From the NCBI GenBank assembly GCA_017444385.1, contig JAFSWQ010000002.1:1-64000 (forward strand): DNA of 64,000 nucleotides. Direction: 5' to 3'. The position numbers were made by a program, and so were the translations under genes. Below are positions 4,286-38,600 of the stretch, piece by piece. Numbering within the stretch: the stretch's first letter is position 1; each line of letters starts with the position of its first letter. The notes under the pieces were generated by a model. The model saw only the letters and a program-made list of their open reading frames with translations. It was not told the DNA's origin and searched no databases. The stretch comes from Clostridia bacterium (GTDB lineage: Bacteria > Bacillota > Clostridia > Christensenellales > CAG-1252).

Positions 4286-4290
4286 ATCGT

Positions 4291-4845
4291 TTAACCCTCC
4301 TTTGCTTTGTTTCTCGAAGGAATGACCATATCGATAAGCCCGTATTTGAGAGCCTCGTCAGCGGTCATCGTGTAATCGCGATCGGTGTCTTTCGCGATAG
4401 TTTTAACGGTTTTACCGGTGTTTTCGGCAAGAATTGTATTCAAACGCAATCTTGTCGCTTCGATCTCTTTCGCCGCGATTATGATGTCGCTCGCTTGTCC
4501 GCTTGCGCCGCCCAAGGGTTGGTGAATGAGTATCTGACAATTCTTGGTGGCTCGTCTGTAACCTTTAGAGCCCGCGGATAAAAGGAAAGCGCCCATGCTT
4601 GCGGCAAGACCAACGCCTACGGTGACGATCCTCGCCTTAATATAGTTCATCGTATCGTAAATCGCGAGGCCTGCGGTGACCATACCGCCGGGGGAATTGA
4701 TCTGAATGGTTATCTCTTCGACGCCGAGACTATCCAAATACTGAAGCTGCGAAATAACGCGCTCCGCCGATTGAAAATTGATCTCGCCGAAGATATTTAC
4801 GGTGTTGTTCTTAAGAGAATAGTTTTCAGAGAATTCTTCTTTCAT
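4291..4845 (-). CDS. clpP: ATP-dependent Clp protease proteolytic subunit
   Basis: This 184-residue serine protease of the ClpP family forms the barrel that degrades substrates fed in by Clp ATPases in the cytoplasm. The triad is complete: Ser83 in GLAASMGAF, His108 in ILIHQPLGG and Asp157 in DTDRDYTMTADEAL, with the oxyanion-loop motif INSPGGMVTAG. The start at 4845 is chosen because GGAGG (about 4855-4859) lies just upstream and the N-terminus then matches normal ClpP length. An in-frame start at 4977 would add 44 basic residues without homology and without a good ribosome binding site. It is first in an operon with a Clp-like pseudo-ATPase, a VirD4-like ATPase and an FtsK-gamma-like protein, not with clpX or tig as in the usual housekeeping arrangement. 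It may therefore be a second, specialised ClpP. Confidence 0.95.
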   Translation of the reverse strand: MKEEFSENYSLKNNTVNIFGEINFQSAERVISQLQYLDSLGVEEITIQINSPGGMVTAGLAIYDTMNYIKARIVTVGVGLAASMGAFLLSAGSKGYRRATKNCQILIHQPLGGASGQASDIIIAAKEIEATRLRLNTILAENTGKTVKTIAKDTDRDYTMTADEALKYGLIDMVIPSRNKAKEG

Positions 4846-5040
4846 TTTTATGGTCCTCCATATATGCGTTTGACGGAACATCCGCCCAGTTAGTTTCACG
4901 TGATAGTTTAGTAGGCGATAAACGCGAAAAAAGTCTAAAAACTTTTTCGCTTTTTTCGACTTGGTTGCCCTGCCCATATTAAGTACGGGGAAAACGTAAA
5001 TTTCGACTTAATTTTTTTCAATTTTTCTTTTTACGATTTG

Positions 5041-11627: not shown

Positions 11628-11645
11628 TGTGTGACGGAGGTAAAT

Positions 11646-14600
11646 ATGAAAACTCAACGCTTAAGCATCATTGTTTTGCTACTTGTCATAATGACGACGG
11701 CTTTCTGTCTCGTCTTTACGGCTTGCGCGAAAGACAAAGAATTCCGAGTCTCACCCGTAGACGGCGGTAATCAGACCGTTGTCGACGGCAAAGAAGTGAC
11801 CGACGTGGAAAAGTTGGATACCACCGACTTCTTCGCGGTCTTGGGCGAATTCGTTAATTTCTACAAAGCCGCTTCGGTCTCGACGGACGATAAAGACTAT
11901 TTCGTTTTCGATCTTAAGACCGATAAATTGACGATGGTCAACGACGGTGTAACGACCGAGTATTACGGCGAATTCAAGTTCCGCTATTTTTGCGCGGACG
12001 GCGCTACCGAGCAACAAGTCAATCGCAACAGCGTAGGTTCTTTGGAATTACGCAAAGTTCAAGGCGATCTGTTGTTCGCGATCTTCTACGAAGAGGGCGT
12101 TTTCTATATCGATCTTGCTAACGGCGCGAGAATGTACGTCAATGAACTCAACCTTGCTCAACTTGCCAAATTGACCGGCTCTTTGGGCGGAGCGGTGGAC
12201 GATATCGCATCTTTGGGTTCCAAACTCGACGCGCTGGATCTTGGTTTTATCAACTTGGCGCCTATCATAAGCTCGTTGCTTGAAAACCTCATAAAGAGAG
12301 CGGATATAACGACCTTGACTTCGGTAGTCAACGATAAGGTTACCGAGTATCAAACCTTCGACCTCGAATTCGACGTCACTTCCTTCGTGAAGGGTATGTT
12401 CTTGCAGATCTCGAATTTCTGGGGCATTGTCAAAGCGACCGTGGGCGATCTCGATTCTGTTCTCACCGCGTTGCCTATGGGTATGACATTCGCGCAGCTT
12501 GCGGCTTATCCTCTTGAAAACATTACCTTTAAGATTGGTATCGAAACTATCAACGGTACGTTCGACCGCTTTACCTCCGAGGTCGGATATTCCGAAGATA
12601 TTTTCCGTTTGGGCGTAGCCATCGGCGCGGAGTACTTGGGCGACGACATTTCCGCCGTTTCCTTCGAGACTCCCGATATCAACGAATACGAAGAGTTTTC
12701 TATCTTGAATTTGGATTTCAGCACCTCCGTTTTGATTTCCAACGAATCTCAAAAGACTTTCAACGTCGGTGAAGTTGCCGGCGAATTTCTTACCAACGTT
12801 TTGGGCTTGCAGACCATAGGCTCGTTGGCGGATAGCGAAGTATCCTTGGGTATAGGTTCTCTCGGTATTAACTTGAGAGTACAGGCGTCTTTGGATCTCG
12901 CGAGGAACGAACGCAATAAAATACAAATTTTAATGGGCGTTAACGGATCCGAGGATAACGTCGCGAAGATTAAATATCAAGGCGATACCGAAAAGCTTAT
13001 TATAGATCTTTCCGCTCTCGGACTTCCTTCCTTCTCTTATACGTTTAACCTTAATAACGTTTTGGTGCCCTTGCTCGGCGAGACTATCGTATCTTCTTTG
13101 AGCGGTACCGCCGCAGCGGAAGACGTAGAGGACGCTTTGATAAGCCTTTACGGCGGCGACGACCTCTATTCCGCTTTGGTTAATTACTTTGCGGTCAATC
13201 CCATCTATTTGGCTCCCGCAGGCGAGACCAATCCCAATATTTTGGGACTTTTGAAAAACAATATCGTTCCTTTGTTGGCTCAAATACTCCGCGCTCTCGA
13301 ACTTGACAAACCCGGTAAGAAATTGACGCTCACCTTTACGCGCGATATGCTTTGCGGCGCTTTGAACACCGTCTCGGGTTTGGTTACAAAAGATTCTTCC
13401 GATCCCAAAGATATCGGTAACGTTCTCAAGGCGTTGGCGAATATGATAGATAACAGAGTATTCTCCGAGAAAGACGTCGCTTTCCGTTCTATGGTTTTGG
13501 AGCTCGGTCTTATAGCCGAAGCTCATAGATTCGGCGTAAGCGTTGACGTTAGCGTAGATCTTGCGCAGGATACCACTATGAAAGTAGGCTTACCTCTCGT
13601 TGGTCTTGGCTTCGCTCCCGAATTCGTCGATGCTGTATATACTACCGATCTCACCGATCTCGACGAGATATCCAACGTTTCTTTCGGCGGCGAAATAGAT
13701 ATAGACTTTACGACTGGCGAAGTCGGCGCGAACGGATTGTCTATCGACCTTAACGACGCGATAGGCGGTTTGCGCGACTATATCGGCGAGATGGCTGCGC
13801 TCTTGAACTTTACCGACAAGATAGAGGCTGGCGTAAACGTTAAATTGCAAGGCAACGTTGGGCTCGACGGCGTCAGCGCTTCCGCTTTGTTGCGCGGTGA
13901 ATCCTTGAATCCCAAATTGGAAAACGTTCAACTCGCTATGGTTATAACCGCGAAAGGCGAGACCGATCCTCTTATCGCCGTGTATTACACTCATTACGGC
14001 GCGGACGGCAACGAATCCGCCGTATTCGTAGATCTCCATAATCTCGGCATCGAGGGTATGACGATACCTCGTATAAAATACGATATCGATTTGGAAACCC
14101 TCGTTAACAATAAGTTGAACGCCTTGACGATCACCGATCCTTCTCAAACCGAAGAAGAGGATGAACCCGAAGAAATCGTGGAAGAAGAACCGACTCAAGA
14201 TGCTGCGGCGATTTCTCTCGATCAAATAGTCGGGCTTATCGGTTCGGTCATCGGTAGAATAGACGTAAGACAGGATAGACTCGGCGTTTACGTAGCGACC
14301 GACGTTTTAGAAAACGTCGCGTCCATCCTTTTGGGCGAGGATATCGAGAATATGCTCAAACTCGACAGCGAAAGTAAAATACAAATATCCGTCGAGGACG
14401 GTTTGAAAGTCGAGGCGAGAGTGGGCATCGATACCAAGGGCGACGTAAACGACAACGTTTCTCTCAATGTGGTGTTGAAGAACTTGTACCTCAAAATGGG
14501 ACGCAGCGAATTCCCCGAGGTCGATCCTTCGTTGTATAAGAATTTACAGGACATTACCGCTATTTCGGTTTCCGCTTCCGCATACGTCAATTACGATCTC

Positions 14601-17600
14601 GACACCAATACTTACGACCTCAGCGATATAGTTCCTTTGGCGGGCAATTTCGTAGAAGGCGGCATCGCCGAATTGTTGAGCGATCTCTTGTTGAATGTTC
14701 AAGTTATAGGCGACGATGATAACGCCGTTAAGGGCTCTATCCTCGTTAAACTCGACGTGAACCTCAACTTCGAGGACGGCTTTGACGTTTCAAAATTGTT
14801 GAATACGTTGGAAGCTAAGGTCGAATTGCTATCGGACGGTCAATCCTTGTTGAAACTGTACTTTGACGGCATCTATCTCTACGTCGACGCTAACGCCGGC
14901 GTTTTGGAAGGTTCCGCGGTCAGCGGTTTCGATATCGACAGCTTTAAGATAAGAGTAGGCAAATTGCCTTGCGGTTGTACTTGTTCCGAATGTATTCAAA
15001 GAGGCGGTTGTTATCTCGGCTCCAACGTGGTTTGTAAAGACGACGACTGCGAGTGCGATTGCTGTATGATAGTTTCCGAGGCGGACGAAGAAGAGTCCGG
15101 CGGAATTCTCGACGTTATACTCGCCAACGTAGGCGTGCTTTCTTCCATAGATATAGGCAGCAAAGGTATCGCCGTCAATTTGGCTTCCAATACGTTTAGA
15201 AGAGTTTTGAATATCGTGGGTAGCGAAGCGCTCGGCATAGACAATTTCTATCAAGGCGTGGCTCTCGACGGTTTGACTCCTCGTATCTACGCTGAATTCG
15301 GTTCGAGCGGCATAGGTTTAGGCTTGACGTTGTTCCTTAACGACGGCGCTGACGAAGAGTACGGTTACATCAACGTAGGCTTGGGCGATTTGACCGTCGC
15401 TCTCGAGAATAACGATTCCCTCATTCCCGCGGACGTTTTGGCGTTCTCGGAATTGAATATTTCCGATCTCAGTGAAATGAGCGCCGCGATAACGGGTTCC
15501 ATTACCCTCGATATCGCAAAATTCGATAAAGGCGAACAAGGAAGCAACCTCGGCACCTTGCTCAAATCCATAGTTCCCGCTCTCGACTTGGGCGTGGCTG
15601 TGGTAGGCGACGACTATAACCTCGAACTTGCTTTCGATCTTAACGCGAACGTCGACCTCTCTTCGTTGGATCTTAACGATCTTTCCCGCGCGGCTGAAAT
15701 ACTTCAAGACGCTCAACTATTGTTGAAAGTTTACGTTGTAAACGGCGGCGTAAGAAGTAAAGAAGTAATAATGCTCTTCTACGACGGACTCACCGATACC
15801 GTTTATGCGAAAGCCGACCTCTTCGGTATAGGCGCGGTTTCTTATAAGGGACTTGACGTCTACGAAATGATATCCGCTCTCACCGCTACCGAAGAAGAGG
15901 AATCCGAATCCGCCGACGTAGACGGTAAAGCGAAACTCGTCGCGCTTAAATTCAATAAAAACGGCATAGCCGTTTCCGCAACCGGCGCTTTGGTTGCCGG
16001 CGCTCTCGCTCAATTCGGTATTTCGTTGGGCGGAATCGATATAGGCGAATATCTCGACACTATCGGCGTCGGCCTCACCACTGACGGCGGCATTTCGGTA
16101 TCCTTGGGCGTCGCGGGCGTTAACGCCGCGGTAGCGATCAACGGATTGCATATGGGTATGGGCTACATAGATATCGAAAAATCGGCGTTCGACGGTTGTA
16201 AGAAGTCCGACTTCGTTGTCGTAAGCGACGAGAATGGTAAGCCCGCTTTGCACGAAATATACTTCGCGCTTTCCGCGGATTTCGATCTTTCCGGTACTTT
16301 AACCGGCGCGTCTACGGGCGTAGGCGTGGATCTTGCGCCCACCGCTTATAAACTTTTGGATAATTTGAATATCGTCGGCGACGTAAGCGACTTCCTAAAA
16401 CAAATAGCCGTTTACCTCGAATACGATCTTGACGCTCGCTTTACGTTGAACCTCAAAGGCTTCGCGAATATCTACGACCTTTCCGAGATAGTTTTATCGA
16501 TAGAAGTCACCGATAGCGAAGGCGTCACTTTAATAGGCTTGTACTACGACAGTAACACCGATAGAGTTTACGCGACCATACCTTCGCTTAATCTAAAAGA
16601 CTTCTACGTCGAACTTCCCGTGATCAGGGATACTTTGCAAGGTTCCATAGGAACTTCCGTGATAGAAGCGCTCGCGATAGTCAGCGGCGCGGACGTCAAC
16701 GCTTCCGAAGCGGCGGCTCTTGAACTCGGCGATCTCGACGTTCTTTCTCTCGTCAGCGAAATCATAGATAAGGTTGAGATAGACGGCAGTAAGGGATTGC
16801 TGAAAATATCCACCGTTACGAATATGATAGGCGTGGCGACCGCTTTGTTGTCTCTCGACGTGTTGGACGACGTGGTATTACCCGACCTCGGCGCGTCGGT
16901 AACTTTGGGCGTGGACAACGACGAAGGCGTATCCATCGGCGTAGGCGTTTCCGCTTATAGAAATGCGGAAGAATGTTTCGCGATGAACTTGGGCGTAAAC
17001 GGTTTCAAACTCGACTTCAAGAAACCCGCGAATATGCTTCCCGACCTTTCCGGTTACGTCGAATGGACGAAGATAAATCTCGGCTTCTCTACTAAGGCTC
17101 AAGTTTCTTTGACTCTCGATGGTGAATACGCTTCCATCGTGAACGAAGTCATCGCTTCAAGTATCACGGGTAGCGCATTTGAATTCGTAGTCGATTCCGA
17201 GAGCGGCAAGGTTACCGCGGATCTCGGCGTAGATATGGCTTTGAACGTTAAACTCAACGACTTCAAAGACGTAGGCGTGGAAATGTGGTTGAGCTTGTAT
17301 TACAACGCGAAAGATTCCTTAACGTTCAGCGACGACGATAGGCTTTTGGCGATCTACTTCAACTCTCTCGACAGATACGTCGACGGTAAACCCGTTGAAT
17401 CCGTCTACTTCCAATTGGGCGGTAATAAACAAGGTAACAGCGCGATAAGAGTGGACGATCTCGGCATCACTGCGACCGTGCTTGATCTTATCAAGGATTA
17501 TCTACCTAAGTCCGATGTTGCGGAAGCGGCAGATAGTTCCTTCGTTCAACTTTCCTTGTCTGACGGCGCTGCTATCCGCGTGAACGGCGGATTTATCGGC

Positions 17601-20600
17601 GCACTGCTCGACTTCCTTAAAGTCAGCAACCTCATTCCTATTCCCGACATCGGCAAATTGATAGACGGAGCGTCCATTTCCGCAAACGCGGACGAAATTG
17701 GGCTTTCCATCAACTTCGGCGGCGAAAGCGCGCTTGCCCTTTCGGTGTTGGATTATAAAGTATTCTTCGTAAACGATAGCGAGAACTTGTCCGCTGTAGA
17801 AGGATTTACGACATCTGTAGACGCTTTGAGAAACAAGGCCGTATCGTTGAAGGAACTCGATCAGATCTACTTCGCCTCTTCGTTCACGGTAGCGGGCTCT
17901 TTCGGTAAGACTCTCGACGAATACGGCAACGTCGTTTCCGACGAATTGGTAAGTTATAACGACGTTTTGAAACTTTTCCTCACTTCCGACGCTTCCGGCG
18001 AAGTTTACTATGGAGTAGACGTCGAGATGGGTGTTAGCGGATTGGATCTCAGTAATATGACCGTTGCGATGTTTACCGAAAACGCGTCTATAGCCGACGT
18101 AGTATCGAACATTATTGCCAACGTCGACGTTGAGCTGATGGTTATTATTAAGGATAAGAACAACGTTACAAACTATGCGGACGGCGAACCCGTTATCGGC
18201 GTTTACTATCATAGCAACGTCACCGACGTAGTTTACGTCAACTTCCCCGCGTTGAATTTGCAACTTGCTTTGCGCGACGCGTTCGATCTATCCGAAATCC
18301 TCACCAACCTGTTGAAGTCCATAGGAAATTCTTCTTCCGCCGAAGCGACCGACTACGTTACAATTTTGAAATTGCTTGATAAGATACTCGTATCCCCCGA
18401 GGGAATAGCGTTATCCGCCAGCGCGCAGATCTTGTCAAGAGCGATGACTTTAGCGGGAATTGACCTCTCGTTGCCCGAGGTCATCAGTTTCATCGGTATC
18501 GGCGAACTCAACGATCTCGCTATCGACACCGAGAGCGGTTCGGTAGGCGTTAATACCGATATAAAGAACGGTTTGGGTATTCGTCTTTCGGCTGTATCCA
18601 ACCCCGATTATTCGCTCGATATCGCCATAGGCGATCCCGTCCTTGAATTCCGTTCGGAAAAGAAAGAGATTTACGCATATACCGAAAATGGCGGAATGAA
18701 GAGCGACTTCTTCGGTCAATTAAGTAAATACATAAGCGCGGACGCCGTTCACGCTCACGTCTCGTTCGACGTGGAATTAGACTTCACCGTCGGCGCTACT
18801 GCGGATTCCGAAGAGAGCAATCTTATCAACTTCAAAACCATCTTGGCGGAATTCGTAAACACCAACTTCTCGATTGATATAGTCGACTACTTGCACGGCA
18901 AATACGTGCTTTCGGTAGACGCCGCTATCAACTTGGCGGAAGGCGTAAACAATATGTACGGTCTCACATTCTATATCGTGTTGACCGAGATGGATCCCGA
19001 GAACACAAAATTGATGTCGTTGTACTACACCCGTACCGAAAAGAGCGGTATTTTGGGTATCGATTTACAAGGACTGCTCGGTATCGAGCCTTTCCAACTC
19101 GAAATGAACCTCGCCGAGATAGTGGGCGGCGTGTTCGACCTTGAAAAGCTCAGCTTCGCCGAAGACGGCGAGATTGAGAACGAGGACAGCTCGTTTATGG
19201 GCTTGCTCAATTCGTTGAGAGGCGTTTTGGGCGTATATCTTGCGACCGACGAAGTCAAGATCAAGGTCAGCGGCGAGATACTTCAAAGCGTATTGTCCTT
19301 TATCGGCTACGACAAGTATCTGCCCGCCTTGGAACAAGGCTTCACCCTTAAAAACAACGATAAAGTTATGGCTCTTAAAGACGGCGATTACGTCGCTACC
19401 GTAAAAGGTACGAGAGCGGGCGAAGCGGTAGAGGATTCCTTCAACTTCAAGAAAGCGATGAAGGAAAACGTCTACGTCCTTAATATTGGATATAAGAGTA
19501 TCCAACGTATTTCGGTGTATCGTAATAGGGATTTGAGAGCGGAACTCACTTCCACTGCGCAAATCAACTCTTACTTCGCTATCGACAGAAACGCGGGAAC
19601 CATTCGTTTCAGCAACGGCGCGGGCGCCAATTCTTTGTCGGTAGGTACGTACGAGATACGTATCGATTATTCGGACGGCTCCAAGTCTACCTTCGAAATG
19701 GTCAAGGAAGTCGTTATCACCACCGTCAACGTCATCGACTTGAACGATTTTGATATCGACGAGATAGTCCTCTCGGGCGAAAGCGACGTTACGTTGGTAT
19801 CCGATCCCGACGACGCGCTTTGGTACGGCAATTACTTCGCCGTCAACGCGGTAGGCGCTTCGGTGAACTTAACCGTCGGTAACGGCGGACTCACGGCGCA
19901 AATCGTATTGAAAGACAATACCCAAGTTGCGTTGAGCGTCAAGAATATCAAGATCGACGCGGGCGAGTATCAAATCGATACTCCTCAATCCTATAAAGAA
20001 AACGTCGAATTCCTGACGATAAGCACCGAGATAGAATTCAACCTGCACGCCGAGGAAGGCGTTTCGGCGTCCATATCCAATCTTTTGGGCAACACTTTGG
20101 ATAAGTATTTACCCAAAGGCGACCTGCCCTTCGATTATTCGGATATTCCCATCGGTATGTGGTTGGAAAACGACGTCGATCAACATTATTTGTTGACGTT
20201 ACAAATGAATATCCACTTTGATCAATATGCGGATACTCCTTTGGATCTCGGCGGTTCGGAATTCGTAATCCAAATTTACAGTCTTAGCGATAACGCTGGC
20301 AAGCAAGTTATCGGCGACCTCAAACTCGGTATCGCCTATATCGGCACCGAGGGCGAAAACGGCGCGATCTACTTGAACGTTCCTTACTTCGATTTGCTTT
20401 TGAAGATAAACGAAGCGAACTTCAAAGCGTACGTCAATACGTTGGTTAACAGCTTCTTCTCTAAGAACAATACAGACGACGATCTTGCCGAGGCGAGCGA
20501 GAGCGCTATCACTATCGAAAGCGTTATCAACCTCTTCTTAGGTCTATCCATCGGCGAGAACTTTATGAGAGTCAATTTCGTCAGCGATATCCTCAACCTT

Positions 20601-23600
20601 GCGGTAAGACTCGCGGGACTTGAATTGGACTTCTCTCAAGTTAACGAAGAAAAGAGCTACGTCGCGATTTATAACTACTTATTGTACGACGACGTTCCCA
20701 AGACCACTTTCGTTGAGATCGACCTCGACGAAGTAACTTACGATAAATTCCTCGAAGCGCGTTTGGAAGCGTATATGAACGATAACAACGCGAACTATTT
20801 GTCCGACCTTATCGACGAACTCAACGCGCTATCCATCACCGACGCGGCTTCTCTCGACAAACGCGCCGAGATCGTAGACGATTTAGAGGGCTTCGATCCC
20901 GATAAGAACACGCAGGAGGAATTCAACGTTATCAAAGCGAAAGTCCTTGATCTCGTCGTAGACGGCGATCAGACCGCTTACGAAGCTTTGAAGGACGACT
21001 TCGACGCGTTCAAGATAAAAGACGAGTATCTCGATATCATAATCTACGCTTTGAATATCGGCTTCGACGGCGATCTCTATCACGAAGTACCTTTGGGGCA
21101 ATATACCACCATCACTCAAGCGAAGGCTTTGTACTTCGATTTGAGCGGTTCCATCGATATCGAATCCGAAGGTAGCGTTATCAATATCGGTTCGCTTATA
21201 GATTCTGAAGAAGACGACAATATCTTCAACGACTTCCTTAACGAAATCGCGGGCAGTTCCACCAACTTGGTATTCCAGGAATCCAAACAATCCATAGATT
21301 TCAGTTTGGAAGCGAATATCGGTATGGGCTCGGATAAACTCAATATGATAGTGGACGGCGATTATACTTTCCGTGATCTCATGCTCGCTATGGTCGACGA
21401 CATCTACCTCTGCTTCGAGATAAGCAGAAGAGTTGGCGATACCAAGGAAGTTTTGATAGACCTTAAATATCAAAACGAATACGTTTATCTCGATATGTCC
21501 GCTTTGGGCTTGCCCAAAGTCGGTATGGGCTTGACCGTTAAAGACGTATTACAACTCTTGGTCACCGACGATTCCGAAACCGCCGCGGCGGGTGAAATCG
21601 ATCACGGCAACGCGTTCGAGGTTCTCTTCTATTCGGATAAACTAATGCTTAGAGGAAGCGTCAAGTTTATAGACTTGATACTCGATCTCTTCGGCTATAA
21701 GCTTAATCAAGCGAATATCTCTTTGGAAGCGAGCGTCGCCAAAGACCAACTCTTGCAGGCTTCTTTGGTAGCAGTAGACGACGCAAATCACGTAACTTCC
21801 ATCGCGATAAGCATCAACAAACCCGTACTTACCTTGGGCGGTTTCTATAACAAGCAAATCGAGGACGCCACCGATTACGCAATGATCGACAACCTCGAAT
21901 ACATCTATTTGGCGACCACTCTCGAAATAGGTTATAGATTGAATAAGACCGAAAACGAAGACGATTACGTTTTGACCGACTTCTTCGCAGAGGAAATTGG
22001 GCTTAATCCCATTCCCGTCATAGTTACCGAGTCTACCGAAATGATAATGGTTATGGACTTCGCTTTGAACTTCTGCGTAAGCGACGTTACCAAGAGCGAA
22101 CTCTATATCCACATGACCAACAACGATCCCAATAATAACGGCGAGTTGATGACCATATACTACGACGGAAACGGTTATCTCTATACTTCCGCGCCTATGT
22201 TCGGCAGCGACCTCAATATCAAGGTGGAATTCGATATAAGAAACATTCTTTCCATCTTCGGTAAAGAGGAACTCTTGGAAATGTTCAAGATCGACCAAAA
22301 GATAAAAGACGCTTTGTCCATCTTGAACTTCGGCGACAAAGAGGAAGAGGAAACCGCCGCCGCGGAAGGAGATCAAGAGAACACTATCGTTCAAATGATA
22401 ACCCGTTTGATTAGCGAGGTCAGCCTTGCTTCGGACGGCGCGATAGGCGTTATCCTTAAAAACAATATCCTCGATTCTCTACCTTTGAGTTTCTTCAACA
22501 ACGAGAGAGTCGCGAGAGAACTCAAAGAACTCAGCGTTTCCGTTGACTTCTTCAATAGAAGATTTGCCGCAAACGTCAAATTGAATTCCAAACTTGCGGG
22601 CGAGGCCGATCCCTATTTTAATATTGTTATTAGAGATTATAATATTAGAGGTTATAATAAGGGCGCTAAACAGGATATCGAATTCGACGGATCCCGTTAT
22701 AACACCACCGAGGATTATAAGCACCTCTACTTCGACTTGGAAGGCACCATCGATTACTACTTTGCCGACGGCGAATATAACTTCGGCGGACTTATCACTA
22801 ATTGGATAAGAGGCGCGGCCATTAACGTAGGTATCGAGGGTATAAACGGACAACTCTCTTACAAGCTTTCCGCTAAGATAGGTATCGGCGCGGACGTTTT
22901 GGAAAGATTGATGGATAGCGAAATAGTTCTCGAAATCTACTATGCGGGTATAGGCGATCCTAAACCTCAACACCTGCTGTTATCCATTTACTTCGACGTT
23001 CTCAAAGGCGAGATATACGTCGATCTGCCTTGGTTCGAAGTACCTCAATTGCTTATTACGGGCGTTGACGTTTCCAAGTATCTCAACGATTTCTTGAATG
23101 GCTCTAACGTAGCCGCCGCCGCGGACGAACCTTCTTGGTACGCTACCGCGAGGATGGTAGGCTCTATGATTGACCGCATCATCATTTCGGACGGCTCGGA
23201 AGGCAACTTACCCGAAGGCTTGAACGTCGTGTTCAAAGACACTTTAATACAGTCCTTGCTCGATAACCTTGCGAAAGACCTCAACATGAGCTTGCCTTTC
23301 ACCTTGCAAGAAACCGACAAGGCTTACAGTTACGTAGGTTTAAGTATCAAGGAAAGACGTTTGACCATAGACCTCGAATTACAAAAGACCGATACTTCGG
23401 AAAGCGGTTACGTAAGGCTTAACGCCAAGATAAACGACGTTTATCTCGACGATACGAGTATTCGTCCCGATAGAACGCAAGACGTTACCGCATACACGGT
23501 ATTGCTCGATCTAAGCAACCCCGTAGACGATATGCTCGTCCTTGAAACCATCTACTTCGAAGCTAATATGTCCTTCGACGTGGATATGATCGCGTCCGAA

Positions 23601-26600
23601 GTTAATTTGCAAAAAGTTCTTCGCTATTTGGTAAACGACAAACTCGTTATGAGTTTCGTCGACCATATAGATATGACCATTGACGTTTCTTTGGCGGCGA
23701 ATATCAATTTGCGCCACCTCGGCTGGTCTGAATTGCTTTTGAAGATAAGCACTTCCCAAACCATTGAAGGAGTTACCAGCGAAGCGATGTTTATCCGCGT
23801 TTACTTCGTCGGTTTGGAAAACGCTTTCTATATCGACGCGCCTATGGTCGGTTTGTATGATATCAAGTACGAATTCGATCTCGGCTCGTTGCTTGACGGC
23901 TTATTGAAGAATCAACCCGTAGAGGAAGAAGTTACGCCCGTTATAACCGAGCTTGACTGCGGTTGCACCGATCTCGCTTGTATCCTTAACGGTTCGTGCT
24001 TCGATAAGAACGGCGATAAACTGTGTAAAGACGGTTGCGAGTGTACTTGCGCAAACTTCTCTTGCGGTTGTAATTGCGACGTTTGCAAGGCAAACGGATC
24101 GTGCGTAGACGCCGAAGGTAATAAATTATGCGAAGCCGGTTGTACCTGCGATCATTGTAAACTCGATTGCGGTTGTCAATGTATGGATTGTGTGATCAAC
24201 GGCTCCTGCTTTGACGATGAAGGCAACAGACTTTGCTCTGAGTCTTGCGTTTGTAGCGACTGCGAACTTCCTTGCGGTTGTAGAGACGAATACTGCTTGG
24301 CGATAGCGAGACAAACGGGCGATTACGAAAACGCTTGCGGTCTCTACGGTATGTATTGTCATGGAAGAGACGGCGACTGCTGTAAGTGCCACAAAGCGTT
24401 GGGCTGTCGTTGTACCAATCCTAAGTGTATCGAAGAGGGACGTTGTATTTACGGTTGGGATCTCGGCGATCTTGCCGATCCTACCGACGACAAACCTCTT
24501 ACGTACTGCGACGACGGTACGGGCGCTTGCTTGAACCATGAAAAATCTTGCATATGCCATAGAGACGTCCTGCTTTGCCATTGCGTCAATCCCAATCACG
24601 TGGAAGATTATAGCTGTCCCGTTCGCGCGTCTGAAGACGATCCTTGTATGTTCGTGCCTTTCGGCGAAGGCAAGATAACCGCTATAGTCGAAGGCGTAAG
24701 GGTTGAAGTTTCCGAAGAGACCTATTACCAATACTACGTAAGACCGGACAGCGAGACCGTATGTAACGGTAGTTGTTTGACGCACTATATGGGACTCGTT
24801 ACCGATATCTTCGAAGAATTCACCATCACCAAAGATCATATGAAGGTAGTTACCAATAAATATTTGGTCGCTAACCTCTTTGAATTGATCGCAGGCGAAA
24901 AGTTGGCAGTCGAAGACACTCCCGGAGGTAGCATCGAGATAGTAATGAATTACTTGAAGCGTAATTCGGAAGGTCGTATCGAAGACGAGTCCTTCTTCAA
25001 GAACCTGCTCATTTCCGCAGCTATCAAGTATTACGGAAAAGATCAGATCGAGCCTTCTACGATAGGCGTTGAAGTCAAGAACTTCGTATTCAAGACGGGC
25101 GACCACGATATCGCGTTCTTGAAGATAGACGAATCCACTCGTAAGGAAACCGTTCAACTTGCCGATACGAACGAGTATCAACTTATTTCCGAGCCCGGTT
25201 CTACAGACTTGAGTTTGGCGAATATCAACAAGATATCCTTCAACCTCACCATAGAAATCAACGAAACCGCGGGTTACGTCAAATATAAGAACGGCGACAT
25301 CGGCGATTACGAGACGGAATTCTCGGATATCTTGAGAAAGATAATTCCCGGTTTGGGCACCGTGTTCGGCTTGAAGACCACTCCTTATTCGCCTTCTATG
25401 GTATTTACTCTCGACGTATCGGGTTGTATAGACTTGAATAACGTCAACGCTTCGCAAGTGTTCATCACCTTGCATGAAGGCGGCGAAAGCAACGGAACGG
25501 TAGAACGTCGTTTGGGTTACATTTTCTACGACGGCGAAGCCCCCGAGGGAACCACGCTCTATTTGGATATCCCCGCTTTCAATATCAACCAGATCAAATA
25601 CGTTGGAATAGATATCGACGGATTGCTTAATAAAGAAAAGCTCGAGTGCGGCTGTACCGACGTTCGTTGCAACGCGAACGGCTCTTGCTACAATGCGGAC
25701 GGCGTGCGTATTTGCGCCGAAGGCTCTTGTACTTGTTCTTACTTCGAATGCGGTTGCAACTGCGATTCCTGTATTGCCGCGGGCGTTTGCGATTCTTGCC
25801 CCATCACTTGCAAGTGCGCTCACTGCGCGGTAGCCGCTCCTTCGGGAGACTCTTACCTAATATGCGGTTGCTCTAATGCCGAGTGCTTGGCGAGAGGTAG
25901 CTGTTACTACGGTTGTCCCACTTGCGCTTATACATTAAATCCCATTCCCGAAAATAACTGCCACGTCAATGCGTCCGGCAAGACTTTGAAGTGCGGTTGT
26001 TCGGATCCTCTCTGCGTAGGCAGAGGTTGCTGTTACGCTCTCTGTCCATACTGCGACGCGGATAGAGGTTGCGCCAAGAAGTACGACGCGAAGAATATGT
26101 TCTCGGATACGAGCGTAATGATCGCCACGCTTCTCGACTCCTTGCTCACCATCGACGTTTCTCTCGCTGCGGGCGTTCAAATCGGTATTGCTCCTTCGCT
26201 TTTAGCGTCGTTGCTCAACGCGATAGACGTTGATATCGACTTGGACGAATTGACCGACTTGGGTTACCTGAAAGGCGGTTTCAGACTCAGTCCCGAAGAC
26301 GGCTTGGGTATCAACTTCGAATTCGGTACCAAAGCGGGCGAACTTCCCAACGACGTGGAAGAAATAGGCGTTCCTTCCATTCGTATATCGCTGGGTAACG
26401 TAGGTTTGAAGTTGAGAAAGGTAGACGTAAGAGCTCTTTTGGACGACGATATCAAATCCCGTCTCGATCACTTCACCGAATTGACCTTCAACGATAACGT
26501 TGCGATATCCGCAAGCGGTCGCTTGAATATTAAGGGAACCGAGGGCGATATCTCGCTCGACTCCTTGATAAGTAACCTCTTGAAGCAAAACGTAAGCCTC

Positions 26601-29600
26601 GGATTAGACTTTGATACTTACGATTACAATATCGAATATAACTTGCTCGCCAACATTAACTTGGATAGCATAATCAACTTCGATATCAATAAAGTTCTCA
26701 CCGAAAACGAAATTCTCTTGGAATTGATAGACCTTTCGGATGAGAATAATCCCGAATTGATCGTTTCGCTCTATCTCGAAGACGGTTGGGCGTACGTTGA
26801 CTTCGGTATCTTTGCGGATACTCCTTCCATTAAGGTCGACGTACTTAACCTGCTCGGCGAAAAGAGACTTGTTTCCGAAGCGGCTGAACCTACTACTTAC
26901 TTGTCCTATAACGCTAATTCCGCTAAACCCGAAGTGGTATCTACGGGCAAGATGTACTTCTATCTCGACGACAACGCCAACGAACCTTATATGCTCGCCT
27001 TGAAGGGCAAAGACCTCGTTTCCGTGACCATCGAGAATATGAACGTCAACCATATCGCCGCCGAGAAGACCAAGGTAGTTCTTACGCCCGAAAATATTTC
27101 CGATTACTTCGAATTATCCGTCGACGGTAATTTGAGCGGATTCCTCTTCGCGAAGAACGACAACGTCGCGACGCTTGCCGACGACGTACAAGGCAACTAC
27201 TACAATATCACCGTAACGACCACGGGTGGCAAAGTGACCTTCGCGTCCAAGATCGCTACGAGAAACCTCATCGGTTTCAGCGATATATTCGCGCAAGGCG
27301 GCATCGAAAAAGTCATCGCGACCGTACTTTCATTCGTGGAATACTTCACCGCGGGTAAAGACTACTTCTCGATGCGCGTAGGCGGCGATATCCTCTTCAT
27401 CGTCGAAGAGCTTCTCGACCTCGACGGCGTCGTCCTCGATCTTCCCGAGATCGGAGGAATAGGCGTTAAAGTGCCTATGAAGTCCACGCTTACCGCGATA
27501 GACAAGGACGAATACGACGCCAACGTTTACAATTCCGATAAGTTCGGTATGAAGACGGTAAGTTCGGACGTTGAATTGGGCGAAATATCTTTGGCTTCGG
27601 TCGCTAAGATGGTATTGACCGTCAACGGCGAAACCTTTACGATAACCGAAGACCTTAATAAATACCTGAAAGAAGTTGACGGTAAGCTCTACTTGCGTTC
27701 TGATAATAGTTCCAAGACCATCGACCTCAACACCGGTTGTTACGAGCTTAAACTCTTCAACAGCGGTGAGGAATCGTTGACCGTTAAGTATTTCCACAAA
27801 GGCGCGTTCGTCGCTCCCGAGCTCGAACTTGACCTCAAGAACATAGTCGTTAAACTCGAAGTCGGCAATTACTTCTTCGTCGTATTGAAGAACGAAGGCG
27901 AGGAGTACACCGACGGCGACGGTAAGTATTGCTTGCTGAACTACGTTTCCAAAACATATTTGAAAAACGCGGACGGCGATTTCGTCGAAAAGAAATCCAA
28001 GCAAGTTATTAACGACGGCAAACGTAATCATATCGACTCGGATAAGTATAAAGACGTTCTTTCCGGCTTGGACGAATTGTACTTGGCTTTGTCCGCCGAT
28101 ATGACTATCGACATAAGCAACAATAATATAACCAATATAAACGATCCGTACAATTCGCAAGGCTCCATCTTCGGTTTAGGCGACAATCTTGCGAATTACA
28201 TCGGCGCGGTTCTTCTCAACCTCGGTATGAGCGCGCACGAGATCAACGGCGATTATAGATTGATCGTAAGAGTACACTTGATGAGCCTTGACTTCACGAA
28301 CTTCGATTACGACGATATCAAGGTTTACGTCAAAGTGCAAAAGAAGTGTCACGACGTTTGGTTCGGCGGCGAATACATAGACGAGAATGGCGACTACGTT
28401 GACGTCTTCTCGGTTTACTACGACGCGCAGAACCTCTATATCAACGCTAATCCCGACCTCTTCTCGCTCTTGCACGCTCCCGCTACCTATATATCCTTCA
28501 AAGACGCTTTCGACTTCTGGGAGACTTCTGCGGCAGCCGATTTGGAACGTTATACGCCTTACTCGATCTATGACAGCTATGCCGAAGCGGGTACGGGCTT
28601 CTCTGTTCCCGGTATCATCGAACTCTTCAATGGTATAAGAATAGGAAGAGGTAAGATAGGTATCGAGCTCGCGAACGGCTTCATCTCTTCGCTTATAAGA
28701 ATGTTCACCGATTACGACTTCGAAGTGGATCTCGGCGTCTTCGGACTCGAAGTCAACTACATGGACGGTCAATTGATAATCGACTACGCGAAGAGCGACG
28801 TTTACACGCCTTCTCTCGCGCTTGACGCAGAAGGCAATCAACTTTACGAAGACGCGGTCGACTACGCGGGCGTCGTGATTAACGATCAAAACAAGACCTT
28901 ATCGTTGACCGACGTAGCGTTAAATAACCTGCCCGACGGCGTATGGACGATCAACGTTTCTTATACTAACGGTTCGATGCAGTCCTTCACTGCGACTATT
29001 TCAGACGACGTTACCTACGCGATAGGCGGCGTGGCGAAGACCGTAGAAGAACTCTATACCGCTCTCGTCGAAGGAAAGACCATTAAGGAATTCGTACTCG
29101 TCGCGAACGAGATAACCGTTGATAAATACGAGGACGAAAACGACGGCGTTTACACCTACTTCCTTGCGGAAGAAAACGGTGAGACTCTCGTATTGGTCAA
29201 TAGAAAGGTAATGTACTCTTTCGCAGCCGATACGGTTACTATAACCTTAACTCCTACCGAAGGCGCTCAGGACGTTCAAACCTTGAATATCCAAGCGGGT
29301 TGTTCGACCATCGTCAACGCTTCGGGTAAGAAGACCGTTGAATTTATCGGCGACTACTTCGTAATTCATTCTACTGCCGCCAAGAAGTTGAGCAAACTCA
29401 CCTTTGCAGCGCCCGAACTCATTTGCATCGAGTTGAATGAAAAGGGTTACGATAAGCAAGATATGAGCCTGCTTATCAACGGCGGTAAAGTTGAAATAGG
29501 CTTCGAATTGCCCGAGAAATACAAGACCACCTCTTTGGGCGGTACGGGCGGTCCGTACAACGAACTCGAAGAATACAAGTTCAACACGATGGGCTTCAAC

Positions 29601-32600
29601 GCAAGCACAAAGGGATTGAAACTCACCGATTATTCAAGTTGGAACCATAACGAATACTACGTCGGCGCGACTATGGAACTCACGTTGGACTACAAGAACT
29701 ACGATATCGATCTCTTGTCCCTCTTCTATTCCAACCCCGGCGACGTACTCGACTTCACTACTTTGAAGAACGCGCTTTCCGCTACTATCCTCTTGGAAAC
29801 TCAACGCGCGATCAACTTGAAGATCGACTTGAAGAGCAAGATCAACACGACCGACTGGAATTATACCGAGATAAGAATAGATATCTATCTCGACAACTAT
29901 TACAAGATGGAAGGCGGAGTTAAGAAACTCGTTACCGATCCTATCATTCTTTACTTCGACGGCGCCGGCGCGGAAGAAGACGCCACCGTTTACGTCGACC
30001 TGTCTGCGTTCGGCCTCGACAAGATTTACTTCAAGTTCGACTTGATGACAATATTTAGAAATCTCGTTATCGGTATGATAGGTACTGCCGAGTACACGAG
30101 TTCCAATACCGACAACAACGTTATCGTAGACGGCGGTTTGGACTGCGGTTGTACCTGCGCTACCTGTTTGGCAAACGGCAAGTGTATTTCTTACGACCAA
30201 AGAACCTGCGATGAGAATTGTAATTGTAAACATTGCAGACTCGAATGCGGTTGTACAAACCAAGGCTGTATAGATATGGGCACTTGTTACGACTCCAACG
30301 GTATCCGCACTTGCGACGGTGAAAGCTGCGGTTGTAACTGCACCAAGCTTTCCTGCGGTTGTACTCACAAGGCTTGCGAACAAAACAACGGCTGTTATAC
30401 CATCGATCTTGAAACGGGCGATGTTGTCAAGCTTTGCGGAAACAGCTGTAAGTGTTCGCACTGTATGCTCGAATGCGGTTGTAATTGTTCCTCTTGCCTG
30501 TCGGCGGGCGGCTGTATTGCCGATCCTGCGACCGGTTTAACGAGGTGCGACGAGAACTGTATGTGCAAGTGTCACGAGAACGAGCCTCAAGACAACAAGC
30601 AAATGCTTGATAAGATATTGGACGTTGCTAAATATGCGGATAAGATCATCGAATCCATCACCATTGGTAATTCGAGAATGTTTATCGCGCTCAATCCCAA
30701 TATCCTAAATAACGTCTTCGCGGCTTTGGCAATACGCACTCTCTTCTCGGAAGATTGTAAGATCTACCTTGAAGGCAAGATATACGAAGACTTCGCCAAC
30801 AGTTACTTACAACTCAACGTCGACCTACAACGCGGAGAACAAATCTACAAGACTCAAGTAAGATTCGGTAATCTCACGCTTTACGGCTACAACAACGAGA
30901 GCTTCTCCCGCGACTATCTTGCGAGCGAAGTGCCCGATCCGACCGGCGTACTCGAAGCGTTGAGCGCGAAGTGGAAGAAGTATCAAAAGAACGCCTTCTC
31001 GGATTACGTCATCAAGAAGAAAGTCGGCACCTCTTACGTCGCTTTCGACGGTACTATCACCGCAAGAACGGACGAACTCGCAGTATTCTACAAAGAAACC
31101 GACGAGGATCCTATCGCCATATTCAAGGCGGACGACTCCTTCTCGCCCGATATCAGACCTTCCGATATTACCGACGTGGTGAACGATTGGACGAGCGTTA
31201 AAGATTTACAAATCAAATTCTCTACTTCGTTGTACATAGATATCAACGGCGGAGAAGCGAATACCGACGTTATAAAGAATCTCACCGAGAACTTAAAAGA
31301 TATCTTGCACGTTTCGCCTTCCGCGAACGACATAATACAAGCGATCTTCCGTAACGACGACTTCACCGATCAACCCGACTTCCGTTTGAGAATAGATATA
31401 GGTATGTTCCTCGATATGGGCAACCATTCTTCTACCGAATTGAAACTCGAGATTTCGAAAGAATATATGGTAGGCGACGAGGCGGTAGACTACTTATTGA
31501 TAGGTTTGTATTACACCAATTCGGTGGATAACGGTACCTTGTACTTATCCTTGCCCGTATTGCAAATAAGCGGTTTGAAAGTCAAAGGACTCGACTTGTC
31601 CTCTATCCTCGATACTTTGAAAGTATTCGACGTATTCGATAAGGTAGCGGGCGCGGGCGACGAACCCGAGGATTTCTTCGGATTGATACTCCGCACTTTC
31701 GATCTTAAACTCGACTTTATACAAGACCTCTTGGATAAGATAGGCAACGCCAGCGAAAACGCGGAAATAGAAGACGCCGCTCTCGCACTTGCGATAAGCG
31801 ATACGAGAATAGGCTTTGCTATCAATCTCGCTTTGGTTAAACTCATCATTGAAGTTGCCGACTTGCGCGAGACCGTAGGCGGCGTTATGGATACCGTAAT
31901 GAGTTTGGTCGACCTCGACGTACTCGAAGTTATCCTCGACCGTGGCGACGGCGTTATCGACGAAGGCGAGAGCATCCTCAACGAATTAAGCTTAACGATC
32001 GGTTTGTACTTCAACAAGAACACGACCAAGAGATTCGGCGACGTTGGCGTCGACGACTACAAGTGGAGCGGATTGAACCTTACCATTTGTAACATTGCCG
32101 TCAAAGTATCTAACGATTTCGCTAAATACGACGCCGACCATTATCTCGACTTCCCCGTAGGTAACAGCTATCAAGGCGGAAGGTTCGTTAACTACGAAAA
32201 ATTCAAGAACGTACAAGAATACAGCGACTTACTCAACTTGACCAACTTCAAGATCAATTTGAGCGGTAGCATAACCCTCGACCTCCTTGACGATCAAGCG
32301 GGATACGAGAATCCTCTTATGAAGTTCATCGCTTCCAAACTCTCGGGCATCTCGTTCGAGGTTCTCGGCGCGGAAGTCATCCTCACCGAGGATACTTTGA
32401 AACTTAATAAGAACCTCGCGGAAAAATACACCATCGGCTTCGATATCGCCGCCAATATCAACTTCGAGCATTGGAGCAATACCGAATTAAAGATCGAATT
32501 TACCTACGACAGAGCGTCCGACGCGGTAGATAAGAAAGTTTTGATGGGTATTTACTACTGGGGCGGCAATACCGTCGCGGACGACGGCGAAGTGAACGAC

Positions 32601-35600
32601 AAGTTGTACACGGGTAACCTGTATATCGATCTTGAAGGGCTCGGACTCTTCAAGACGAAGATAGAGGGTACTAACCTCTTGGCTATCCTCAACAAACTTA
32701 CCGGCGTCGATTTGTCTAAGGGCGAATTGAAAGTGGGACAAGAACTCTTGGATTCTCTCTTCAATACGAGCAACCTTACCGAAATCGTCAAGAAGTTCGT
32801 CGATCGTATAGAAGAGGAACAACTTGAACGCAGCGCGGTGGAAAACGGCGAAGTCCAGGAAGAACAAGAGGAAGAAGAAACCGTTGAAAAGCTCAGTTGC
32901 GGTTGTACCAACCCCGAATGTTTGGAAAGAGGTACCTGTTATAACGACGACGGACTCTTATCCGAAGGCGAACACAAGTGCGCTTGCAGCGTGAACGACG
33001 CTTCTTTGACCTTCTCTTTGGATACTTATATCAGCGATCGTAGCGGCGTACTCGGAAGAGACTTCAATATCGACGTAAACAGCAATATGCTCCAAAAATT
33101 GCTGTATATGTTCGGCGTTGATTTCGAGATGCCCAAAGATACCGACGTAAATATCGATCTCAAAGCGGCTAACGGATTTGAAGGTCTCACTATTACCGTG
33201 ACCACCTTCGACGTTAATGAAGAAGGCGAGGCATTCACGAACGCGAGCGGTGAAAAGCAAGGAAGTAAGTTGATCCTTGCGGTCGACGACTTCGGCGTCG
33301 AATACACCAAGACCAGCAACCTTTTGAATAATGTGGTCTACGATATTGAAACCAAGACGATAGATGGGCAATCCCGCAAAGTCAAGGCCGAAAAATCTAC
33401 ATTCTCGGGAGTCAACCTCGGCGGTAAACTCGGCGACGCAAACCACTATAAAGGCAACTTGATAACCGCTATAATCAGCAACGTTATCGACGCGTTGAAT
33501 ACCGAAGTAGGTTTGCAATGGTACTCCAATTCGAGTTACGTCGACGCTTCGGGTTCTTCCGTGGTTACCAACAAGGAACGTAATTTGACGGTTTCTTTGA
33601 ATAGAATACTTCAAACCGATCCCGATAAGCCTAACACCGGCAACTATATACACGGTCAGGACTTCTACCTTAACGTCTTGTTCGAGAAAGTGCCTATTAT
33701 CAAGAACTATTTGAAAGGTCTTTATTATTACGAACACAAGGTCTATATAGACTTAGATTTGTACATTACGTTGTTCGGTAATAAGATAACCGTCTACGAT
33801 AAGCCTTTCGTTTGGGACTTCGATCTTAATCAGTTCTTCAACAAAGAACCCGCTTTGGGCGACGTTGACAGTCCTACCGATATTTCGAGAGAAGAAGATA
33901 TCAACACGAGAGCGATTACGATGAAAGACCTCGAAGAAGGTTTGAAGAATCCTTTGAAGAACATCACCATTAACTTAGGTCGCGGCGAAGTAGGTCACTA
34001 CGGCGAGATACTCGACTACAATCAAGACGATTGCGTATCCAATATAAGAATTGATCTTAATCCTCTCTTCGTAGGCGGCTTGCTCTCTTCGCTTACCTCT
34101 TCTTTGGGCGATATGATAAACGGAGCGCTTGGCGGCGGATTCAACGTTAAAGACCTTGAAAACAAGTACGTCATTTATGCATTCTACTCTGCGATGAAGA
34201 ACAAGCTCATTTCGACAAACAACGGTTACATTCGCACCCTCTTGAATACTATCGCCGACAACGTATTAGGTGATTTAGTTTTCACCATCGTAAGTAACAT
34301 ACTCTTACCTTTCCCGACCATTACGAGAGGTTCCGAGTGCTACATCTTGGTAGAATTGCACGATAAACCCAAACCCGACGCTTCGGGCGAGTTGTCTATG
34401 ATTCGTAAGTTATTCGTCAGTATTAACACCAAGGCCACAGGCGAATTTTGGAACGTTGAACTCACCTTGGATAAGGCGTTGAAGATAGTCAAAGTCAACC
34501 TGTCTGCGAGTAACCCCGTTACCGTAAGGGACGAGGCTCACGAAGGATCGGGTAACCTTGACGATCGTACCGTAGTGGACGTATTCGATCTTGACTACGA
34601 TAAAGACGGCGTATTCGATTATATGGAAGACCTTCCCAAGAAGGCTCAGGTCAATCACTTCGAATCCTCGAGCGTCGATAATTCTTCCGAGGCGCAAGAC
34701 AGAAAGCAAAATATGTACGATATGAGCTGGTCTGACGCGGTATTCACTATCAACCCGCAAGAACCCGGCGACTATTACGTGGAAGGCTACGTTCTCAACT
34801 ACGTACAGAAAGTTAAAGTTCACGTTCCCGCTTCCGCGGTTCGTAAGATTAAATACGATAACCTTACCGTTACCGTAGACGGCGAGCCCTATCATATTCC
34901 TATGATAACAGGTAAGGGACTTAACTATCCTATCGTTTTGGATGCGACCGAAGTCGATTCATTCGTGAAGAACCTGCCCAGCGTTATCTACGTTACGATG
35001 ACCGACGGTAATGACGAAAACGAATTCGTCAAAGCGTTCGACGGCACCAAGGGCGTAGGTTCGGGTATAGTTAAGTGGGATACATCCGCTATTTCCAAGT
35101 CCTACAACGGCGGAACTTATATCCTCGGTCTTACCTTCGGCGACGGTATCGTAGGCAACTATCACGTGGATATCCCCGTTACCGTCAACAAGAACGACCT
35201 CAACGGTATTATCTTTGCGGACGAAAACGGCGGCTACGAAAACGGATCGAGTACTTTGGTATTCAATCCTTACGAAGAGATCGTACTTCCCAACAAAGTA
35301 TGGGCTACCTTCGGCAACGCGCTTCCCGCGCTCTACAATATCAAGTGGAACGTGACCGTGAACGATATAGTCCCCGTTTACACCGGTTACACTTATAGAG
35401 TAAGCGCGCGTATCGGTAACGCCGACGTAGGTTATTACGATTACAACAATATCACCATCACCGTCAAATCCTACGTGATGGCGGATTACAAGTTATTATT
35501 GCCGAGCGGCGAATACGTCGATCTCGACCTTGAATTCGATCCTTACCATACCAACGACGACGGCTTGGTAGACGCTTTGAACGTTGACAACTATCCGAGG

Positions 35601-38600
35601 TATTTGTGGATAAGATACGAGGGCAGCAGCGACTACGTCAAAGAGCGCGTCGAATGGGCTCTTATGAACGTCAAGAATAACTATGCGGGCGGTATCACCC
35701 ATGCGACGTTCAGAATCACTAGCGACGATAGCGATAAACTCGCGCGTATCCAACTTGCGGGCTATCAAACCAAAGACGTAGCTATCAAGATCAAAGACGC
35801 CACCATCGCGAGTTACGTCATAGAAGGTTTGGCTGATAGAATAGACCCGTTGTATATGATCTACGTAAGAAGAGATCAAAACGGCAATATGATAGACTAT
35901 ATCGAATACAACGGTAAGTCGGAATTCTACAGTAATGGAGTTAACAACAATTCGCCCGTACACTTCAACCTCGTAAGCGGCGATAACGTACAACTTCTCA
36001 ACCTCTATAAACCCGAGTTGGTAATCTTCGACACGGTTAACAAGAAGATAGTTGATCCTACCGACGCTTTGGACGAAGATTGCTATCCTCATACCGTTAC
36101 CATAATCTACAAGGACGGCACCACCGCTACCTTCAAGGCGGAGATGGGTATAGACGGTAACTTCGACAAAGAAGCGGGCGTCATTTGGGAAACCGGCAAC
36201 CTCAAACTCGACTACAAGGGCGGCAAGTACAACGCGAGCTTAACCGTAGGTAGCGTAGCGGGCGGCTATCAAACCATAGACGTACCCATCTACATTGCGG
36301 ACAGAACGGTGGCGCATATCAACTTGAAAGCTGTACGCGATTCCTACGTATTCCATCCGTACGTTTACACCGACTACGCTTTGGACGAAGCGTTGTATCC
36401 TTCTAATGGTATGAACCTCGGCGAATTGATCGACGCTATGAATACGGCGCCCAACACGTTGAGCAACGTTATATTCACGTCACAAACCGCCGACTACTAT
36501 CCTATCAAGTGGGACCTCACGAGTATCAACACCTCTTACGAGGGCGGCACCTTCAACGCGAAAGCGAAGATAGGTTCGGACGAAGCCGGTTATCAAACCG
36601 TTAACTTTGAAATAGTTATTAAGCCTAAGGTCATCAAGACCTTACTCCTTGACGACTTCGTATTCGATCCTTACGACGAATCCGTCAATCCTTTGGAAAA
36701 GAGCACCTATCCCGAGGACGTCACCGTTCGTTTCGAGGACGATACCAACTTCGAATTCCATAACGTCAAGTGGGAGTTGGACGGCTTAACGCCCAAGTGG
36801 AACACCACGGGCGGCAACGCGACCATCAAAGCCAAGATAGGTAACGCGTTGGGCGGCTATCAGATCTACGACGTCAACGTTTACGTTGAAAACAGAGAGA
36901 TCAATAGATTCCAATTGAATGCCGATAACGTCATCGTATTCGACCCGTACGGCATAGATCCCGACGCGTTGTCGAGCGATCCTCGTTTGACCGCAAGTTA
37001 TCCTGACGAACTCTCCGTCATCTTCGTAGGTAGGGACGGCATAGCGGATACCGAAGACGATACCGCGGGTACCGTTAAGGTCATTTGGGATATCAACAAC
37101 ATAATCAACGATTATCACGGCTACAAGAGTAAAGAAGCGGATAAGTATTACAAGACTTACGAAGTCTACGTCAAGGTAGGTAACAACCTCGTAGGTTATA
37201 CCGATAAGGCGATATCCGTTAAGATACTCAACCGTGAGATCGAAAGCCTCAAACCCAGTAAGTTGACTATCGATCCGTTCAGTAACGACAGCTTGACTTC
37301 TACCGTTACCGTTGAATTCAAAGACGGTTCGGTCGGTTCTATGCCCGTCGAATGGACAGATAAGAATTACGACTTGTACGTATTGGGTAGAGAGGTCGAT
37401 AACACCGACGCTTATGTTTACGCGAGAGTGGGTAACTACATAGGCGGCTATCAAACCAAGAAGGTCGGCGTCGACGTAATAGACAAGACCATCGGCAAGA
37501 TATACGCCGGCAACGAGATCATAGCCAAGAGAGTAGCGGGCGAATTGAAGATAAGCGGTTTCGAGTATGAAGTCGGCGACGATATCTACGTACGCGACGC
37601 TTGTTACTACGAAATCGATCCTTTGGAAGATACCGCGCGTATCGTTACCGTATCCAAACTGAAAGGATCTAACGAGTACGTTTACAACTATCTAAAGATT
37701 TCTTCCGGTCTCGACGCGTACTTCGAAGAAGACGGCACTTCCCGTAACCTCAGCGCAACTTGGGATATGTCGGGTATCGTAGACGTTGACTACAACGGAA
37801 AGACCTTCTACTCGCTTGAGAATTCCTCTACCAAGGGCGTCGTATTGAGCCTCGGTACCGCGAGAGTGGGTTATATCGAACTCGAGTACAAGGCTAAGGT
37901 TCTCAACCGTAAAGTAGCCGAAGATGAGAACAACAGACCGTTCATCTACACGTCTTACGACGCGTCCACCGGTATCGGCGAACGCTTGAACTACATCGTG
38001 GACGACGACTTCGATTCCGCAAGTTATCCCAACGTCCTCTACTTCCGCTTCGCTAATTCGGACGGCGTGGAAGGCGACGTTATCCAAAAGGTCGTTACCT
38101 GGAACAAGAAGACCGATTACGCTACCGTAGTTATCGGTAAAGAGAAATACGGAACGCAATCCTTCGATATACAGGTCTACCACGTAAGAAGAGAAGTAAC
38201 TTACGATAGCTTTACTGCTAACGATTTAGACGACGAACTCGACGCTCTTGCAGCCTCGATCTCCGAAATTACCTTCGAAAGCGAAGTCGGTATGACCAAA
38301 GCGGAGGCTATCGCCAAAGTAGCGGAATACAAACTCGCCGCAAGAGTCGCGGGCACCGAAGCGGGATATCTCGCTATCATTGACTTCCTCGCTTCCTCAA
38401 AGGCAGCGGAAGGCTATGAAGACGCTCTTAACGACGCAAGAACGCTTGCAGACGAGATTAAGTATGAATTGATTAATATAGTATTCGTAGATCCTTACGA
38501 TATACAAATGCCCGATTCGTTGAACGTAACGATAGGTAGAGCGCAACTTGTAGGCGGCGGTATCATCACTACCGATTTGTGTGGCTGCGAAGCTTGCCAC

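Follow-up and report, generated by a model that had tools for sequence, protein, structure and literature searches.

A single open frame in the Clostridia DNA analyzed here (the window, 64,000 nucleotides of contig JAFSWQ010000002.1, C9, from the 0.92-Mb, 54% complete Christensenellales assembly GCA_017444385.1) encodes a giant protein in which copies of a small Cys/His-rich repeat, here called cassettes, sit at fixed joints between the modules of the chain. Selection acts on the cysteines of these cassettes. Judging from sequence patterns, each cassette unit may chelate a metal rather than form ordinary disulfides, a reading that we put at about even odds (probability roughly 0.5).

The initial annotation of the window, which used the sequence alone, had marked five cassettes (A to E), all starting with CGC. 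All five were recovered at these positions and open with CGC, and a sixth, weaker cassette (F) had been missed (Table 1). The repeat unit is about 35 residues long and is often present in tandem copies. Eleven aligned units (alignment A1) follow the pattern LxCGCTCxxCxxNGxCxxxxGxxxCxxxCxCxxC, and the overall consensus is LxCGCxxxxCxxNGxCYxxxGxxxCxxxCxCx[C/H][C/H], with further conserved glycine, tyrosine/phenylalanine, and hydrophobic positions. In total, 145 units were found, and the tail table used below covers 122 units with a tail; a first parse with a regular expression had given 183 candidate starts, 96 of them with a tail. As the initial annotation had reported, the cysteines are clustered: up to 11 fall within 35 residues of the window protein versus at most 6 in 200 shuffles of the same protein, and the cassettes hold 136 cysteines in 602 residues, compared with 25 in the 9,861 residues outside them.

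An iterated profile grown from a one-module seed gave 21 module matches within the first 7,400 residues of the window protein, 20 of them at an E value of <1e-5, which agrees with the estimate of about twenty modules made earlier. Cassettes A to E all lie between modules (5 of 5), though linkers make up only 20% of the module half. Across nine orthologs, the 62 clusters of at least 5 cysteines in the module half likewise all lie between modules (linkers, 20 to 31% of the length); these clusters, being orthologous, are not independent, and the window by itself contributes its five of five. For cassettes A, B, C, and D, the start column in the alignment is identical in 9 of 9 orthologs. Cassette positions are thus nonrandom, as had been proposed. 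The narrower claim that every cassette follows a DxxxLL motif held for B and C only: A is preceded by FDIDSFKIRVGK and D by DLMTIF, and E lies 69 residues past its module.

The nine long orthologous frames that were aligned come from the window, G001, G003, and G004, which belong to one genus, and from G008, G011, G012, G015, and G016, which belong to another. Frames of 9,735 to 10,553 residues were found in seven other genomes; that of G015 is incomplete at the end of the examined stretch, and that of G001 runs into the end of its contig ahead of cassette F. Ortholog identity is 38 to 70% within genera and 27 to 30% between the two. Cassette E is present in 4 of 4 members of the window's genus and in 0 of 5 members of the second, which has two further cassettes, each in 5 of 5. 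Cassette F occurs in seven of the eight orthologs that extend that far, and five additional fragmentary genomes also carry cassette A. A fragment from a third genus (L079, G006:C40) carries a related giant frame with eight module matches, only four cysteines, and no cassette A.

Over stretches of 40 residues, conservation in the entire protein peaks at the first unit of cassette C, and the runner-up lies in cassette D. In six ortholog pairs, identity at cassette cysteine sites is 87 to 99%, compared with 31 to 64% at other cassette residues, 28 to 71% in the rest of the protein, and 5 to 52% at cysteines outside the cassettes. No variation at all is seen in 167 of the 197 alignment columns in which cysteine is the majority residue. 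Because identity at the cassette cysteines exceeds that of both their neighbors and the noncassette cysteines, selection acts on these cysteines more than on their surroundings.

A profile of the unit, which the initial annotation had suggested for use on metagenomes, was searched in other genomes and returned a conserved repeat confined to the window's family. Among 61 genomes, the profile matched 14 at an E value of ≤0.01, all within that family. A larger unit profile (A2), at an E value of ≤1e-4, matched 13 of 20 family genomes and none of 376 other genomes of the order, 390 of the class, and 397 of the phylum (overlapping samples). By these profile searches, the unit is restricted to one lineage (14 of 20 family genomes and 0 of 376 others of the order). 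A cassette C pattern scan of 84,980 species genomes, which reaches close relatives only, yielded nine loci with titles naming uncultured Clostridia or Clostridiales or Christensenella sp. UBA1252, UBA4247, UBA3798, and UBA3217; one is from roe-deer caecum. For relatives on mobile elements, tblastn against plasmid (72,556) and phage (50,697) records gave no match, and no viral contig turned up.

None of the six cassettes matched a Pfam family at an E value of ≤10, including EGF and metallothionein, and the unit matched nothing in Pfam or NCBIfam and nothing significantly in PDB. Searching Pfam with 67 two-unit members likewise gave no EGF or metallothionein match at an E value of ≤1. Full EGF spacing (completion by C4-x-C5-x8-C6, relaxed pattern) and the ferredoxin motif CxxCxxCxxxC were each found 0 times in the nine orthologs. 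Known zinc-site spacings are not reproduced either, with a RING-like pattern occurring once and a LIM-like pattern three times across the same orthologs. In a structural model of a two-unit cassette, built from 67 sequences (predicted local distance difference test [pLDDT], 74.5), each unit has a short helix close to C10, and the first also forms a hairpin; Foldseek gave no match for this model.

The case for metal begins at the tail of the unit, whose last two positions swap Cys and His within single orthologous units (HC, CC, CH, and HH in groups 1391, 5989, 7660, and 7735). Across species the tail reads CC, CH, or HC in cassette A; HC, CH, or HH in the second unit of cassette C; and HC or CC in the first unit of cassette D. 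Histidine, which makes up 0.97% of these proteins, occupies one or both tail positions in 53 of the 122 units with a tail. Interchange of Cys and His at ligand positions, as in zinc-finger-like knuckles, is therefore found at the tail dyad. Among 14 genomes, cassette A has 9 cysteines in nine, 10 in three, and 8 in two, and seven of the nine genomes with 9 cysteines have a tail histidine.

The initial annotation had advised a search for extracellular thiol oxidoreductases, and three families were searched. DsbA (PF01323), VKOR (PF07884), and DsbB (PF02600) had no match in 25 genomes (20 of the family and 5 of the order; 13 at least 90% complete), and the same search detected DsbA, VKOR, and DsbB in 8, 3, and 6, respectively, of 14 well-known control genomes. 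AhpC-TSA matches occur in 10 of 12 genomes, and these proteins were rejected as exported oxidases, since those inspected are GPx/Bcp-like and have no signal peptide. Metal is favored over disulfides because of the Cys/His exchange in the tail, the odd cysteine counts, the absence of DsbA, DsbB, and VKOR, and the absence of a full EGF or ferredoxin motif. Each unit would bind a divalent metal, most likely zinc, through 8 to 10 Cys/His ligands. Chelation would fold the joint without an oxidation step, and the giant chain could thereby be stapled mechanically in the reducing, anoxic gut.

Several observations weigh against metal binding. Histidine accounts for 5 of 79 replacements at cysteine-majority columns of the whole-protein alignment, which is not above its frequency in cassettes (P = 0.14); the Cys/His exchange is therefore confined to the tail. 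The association between Cys7 and Cys/His34 has a P value of 1.6e-6 when counted by unit but 0.074 when counted by orthologous group. Many units have 8 cysteines, an even number, as disulfides would want, and the confidence of the two-unit model is modest. The core of the unit, C-x4-C-x5-C-x8-C, has the C1-to-C4 spacing of EGF, and the exact core with cysteine-free gaps occurs 3 to 5 times per ortholog. Within PDB, the unit profile matched solely EGF-bearing chains at an E value of ≤1 (factor XII, 0.33; P-selectin, 0.62; Notch2, 0.84), none of them significant, and a column-permuted profile that kept the cysteines (one of two permutations was searched) matched nothing. A likeness to EGF by spacing alone was rejected, since this permuted control lost the EGF matches; on one permutation, the resemblance appears to exceed spacing alone slightly. 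The earlier statement that the units are unlike EGF thus held for the full pattern and for Pfam and failed for the core. Some Clostridia, moreover, have functional DsbA and VKOR, according to the extract of PMC12453122, and unidentified oxidants are conceivable.

These points bear on an alternative in which the units stiffen the joints as EGF-like or knottin-like disulfide knots, formed by an unrecognized oxidase or by oxidants such as gut cystine. EGF domains contain a hairpin, and the two-unit model has one in the equivalent place; the NGxCYD..G pattern is also EGF-like, and the Cyclotide family of Pfam matched 2 of the 67 two-unit members (best E value, 0.0027). We regard such knots as a serious contender but the less probable account, given the missing EGF completion, the insignificant PDB matches, the odd cysteine counts and Cys-to-His exchange, and the 0 of 25 genomes with DsbA, DsbB, or VKOR. 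It is improbable that the cassettes instead cross-link neighboring giant chains or belong to a disulfide-tiled spore surface, as in Clostridium exosporia. The lineage may sporulate, since Spo0A is present in 16 of 18 genomes, and the cysteine-rich CsxA makes disulfide-linked exosporium arrays in clostridia (extract of PMC7333573). Lipobox N termini, however, indicate the cell membrane, the 413-residue module segment searched has no match in the relatives G007 and G013, both of which have Spo0A, and the cassettes occupy several internal joints rather than one assembly domain. Dense CxC and CxxC motifs in an anaerobe would suit iron-sulfur clusters for extracellular electron transfer, which we nevertheless consider very improbable, as the ferredoxin motif is lacking, CxC is commoner than CxxC in the window protein (42 versus 17), and the protein would be exported with no known assembly route. 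Among the roles first proposed for the cassettes, metal binding is therefore favored, disulfide knots retain some probability, and the iron-sulfur suggestion lost its motif.

The repeat is a new family within a known kind, cysteine-rich surface repeats. With the EGF-like domains of P-selectin, factor XII, and Notch2 it shares a C-x4/5-C-x5-C-x8-C core, the NGxC..D..G..C pattern, the hairpin, and the subthreshold PDB matches; it differs from them in the leading CGC, the tail CxCx[C/H][C/H], the Cys/His exchange, and the incomplete EGF spacing. Metallothioneins have a high cysteine density with CxC and CxxC, whereas the cassette unit is a defined repeat with conserved glycine, tyrosine/phenylalanine, and hydrophobic positions and without a Pfam match. 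The variant-specific surface proteins of Giardia, compared by description, are also cysteine-rich surface proteins; the extract of PMC2996952 documents GGCY motifs, substoichiometric zinc binding, and CxxC-based zinc-finger motifs, in contrast to the CxC-rich units placed at fixed joints of a bacterial lipoprotein of 10,000 residues. In Lactococcus lactis, the membrane proteins Llmg_0524 and Llmg_0526 bind zinc through cysteine motifs despite the "cysteine exclusion" of a Gram-positive bacterium (extract of PMC4628341), with one CX2CX10CX2C site each, versus tandem repeats in the cassettes. CsxA resembles the giant protein as a cysteine-rich structural protein of anaerobes, but it forms disulfide-linked spore arrays, and its description in the extract of PMC7333573 includes neither a lipobox nor a giant modular chain.

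Anaerobic and Gram-positive bacteria avoid cysteine in the proteins that they export, as described in extracts of PMC12453122 and PMC4628341. The giant gene obeys this avoidance outside its cassettes and breaks it massively inside them. Tentatively, we propose that the cassettes may be an undescribed extracellular, metal-clamped repeat family that substitutes for disulfides at conserved joints of a 10,000-residue chain, in a lineage without known disulfide machinery. Among open-licence PMC papers, none on the cassette repeat was found, nor any joining Christensenellales with "cysteine-rich." If the cassettes bind metal, they would illustrate a way of cross-bracing a surface protein without oxidation in a reducing habitat and would amount to a new protein domain; metal clamps shown to replace disulfides would be more than a new family of a known kind. 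Cassette A, a single unit, is small enough for a direct test.

Table 1. Cassettes and other features of the window
Feature	Position	Strand	Description
Cassette A	14970..15065	+	One unit, 10 Cys; found in 14 genomes
Cassette B	23958..24647	+	Three standard and three degenerate units, 46 Cys
Two extra Cys (CNGSC)	24762..24776	+	End of cassette B region
Cassette C	25647..26072	+	Four units, 31 Cys
Cassette D	30144..30572	+	Four units, 34 Cys
Cassette E	32898..32987	+	One short unit, 6 Cys
Cassette F	38580..38639	+	7 Cys, weaker; in the C-terminal Ig-like half
Giant gene	11631..43022	+	10,463 residues in one open frame; lipobox-like signal, about 20 modules of about 245 residues, then Ig-like repeats
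Representative module, modeled	26097..26855	+	AlphaFold2, mean pLDDT 82.9
Second giant gene	43130..62281	+	6,383 residues; Sec-like signal, GGxAG-type repeats, C-terminal membrane segment

The N terminus of the giant protein, MTTAFCLVFTAC, resembles a lipoprotein signal with the lipobox-like sequence CLVFTAC, and clearer lipoboxes are found at the ortholog N termini (LTLTAC in G004 and LVLTAC in G001). As judged by eye, without a predictor, these N termini are signal sequences ending in a lipobox cysteine. The giant protein is thus probably a lipid-anchored surface protein, the extracellular exposure of which we infer from the lipobox. Such an anchored chain of about 20 modules, clamped at its conserved joints, may serve in the gut as an adhesin, a spacer, or a fiber. 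The Ig-like repeats of the C-terminal part match Big_4 (E value, 8e-7). GGYQ and FDPY motif repeats in the C-terminal half (window positions 34686 to 41585) belong to the best-conserved parts of the giant protein.

The module model, from an alignment of 72 sequences drawn from 101 near-complete module references, consists mainly of long strands with some short helices. Foldseek gave no significant match to it in PDB (best E value, 0.39) or among viral models (best E value, 0.36), and the best PDB match of the module profile had an E value of 0.93. The best VIA-align Z score of 7.6 was to unrelated beta-barrels and was not taken as a fold match. A lipid-binding fold is not claimed, the matches to apolipoprotein B (E value, 0.46), Mmm1 (1.3), and LBP (3.1) being insignificant.

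The first 3,500 residues of the second giant protein had no Pfam match, and a large frame downstream of the first giant gene is present in six orthologous loci as well. The second giant protein contains a single DxNxDG-type cysteine motif, HKCVDANGDGVCDNS (window positions 60011 to 60046), that differs from the cassettes. Upstream of the giant genes, on the minus strand (window positions 1054 to 4977), genes for a type IV secretion system coupling protein and a ClpP-like protease suggest that a mobile element lies nearby.

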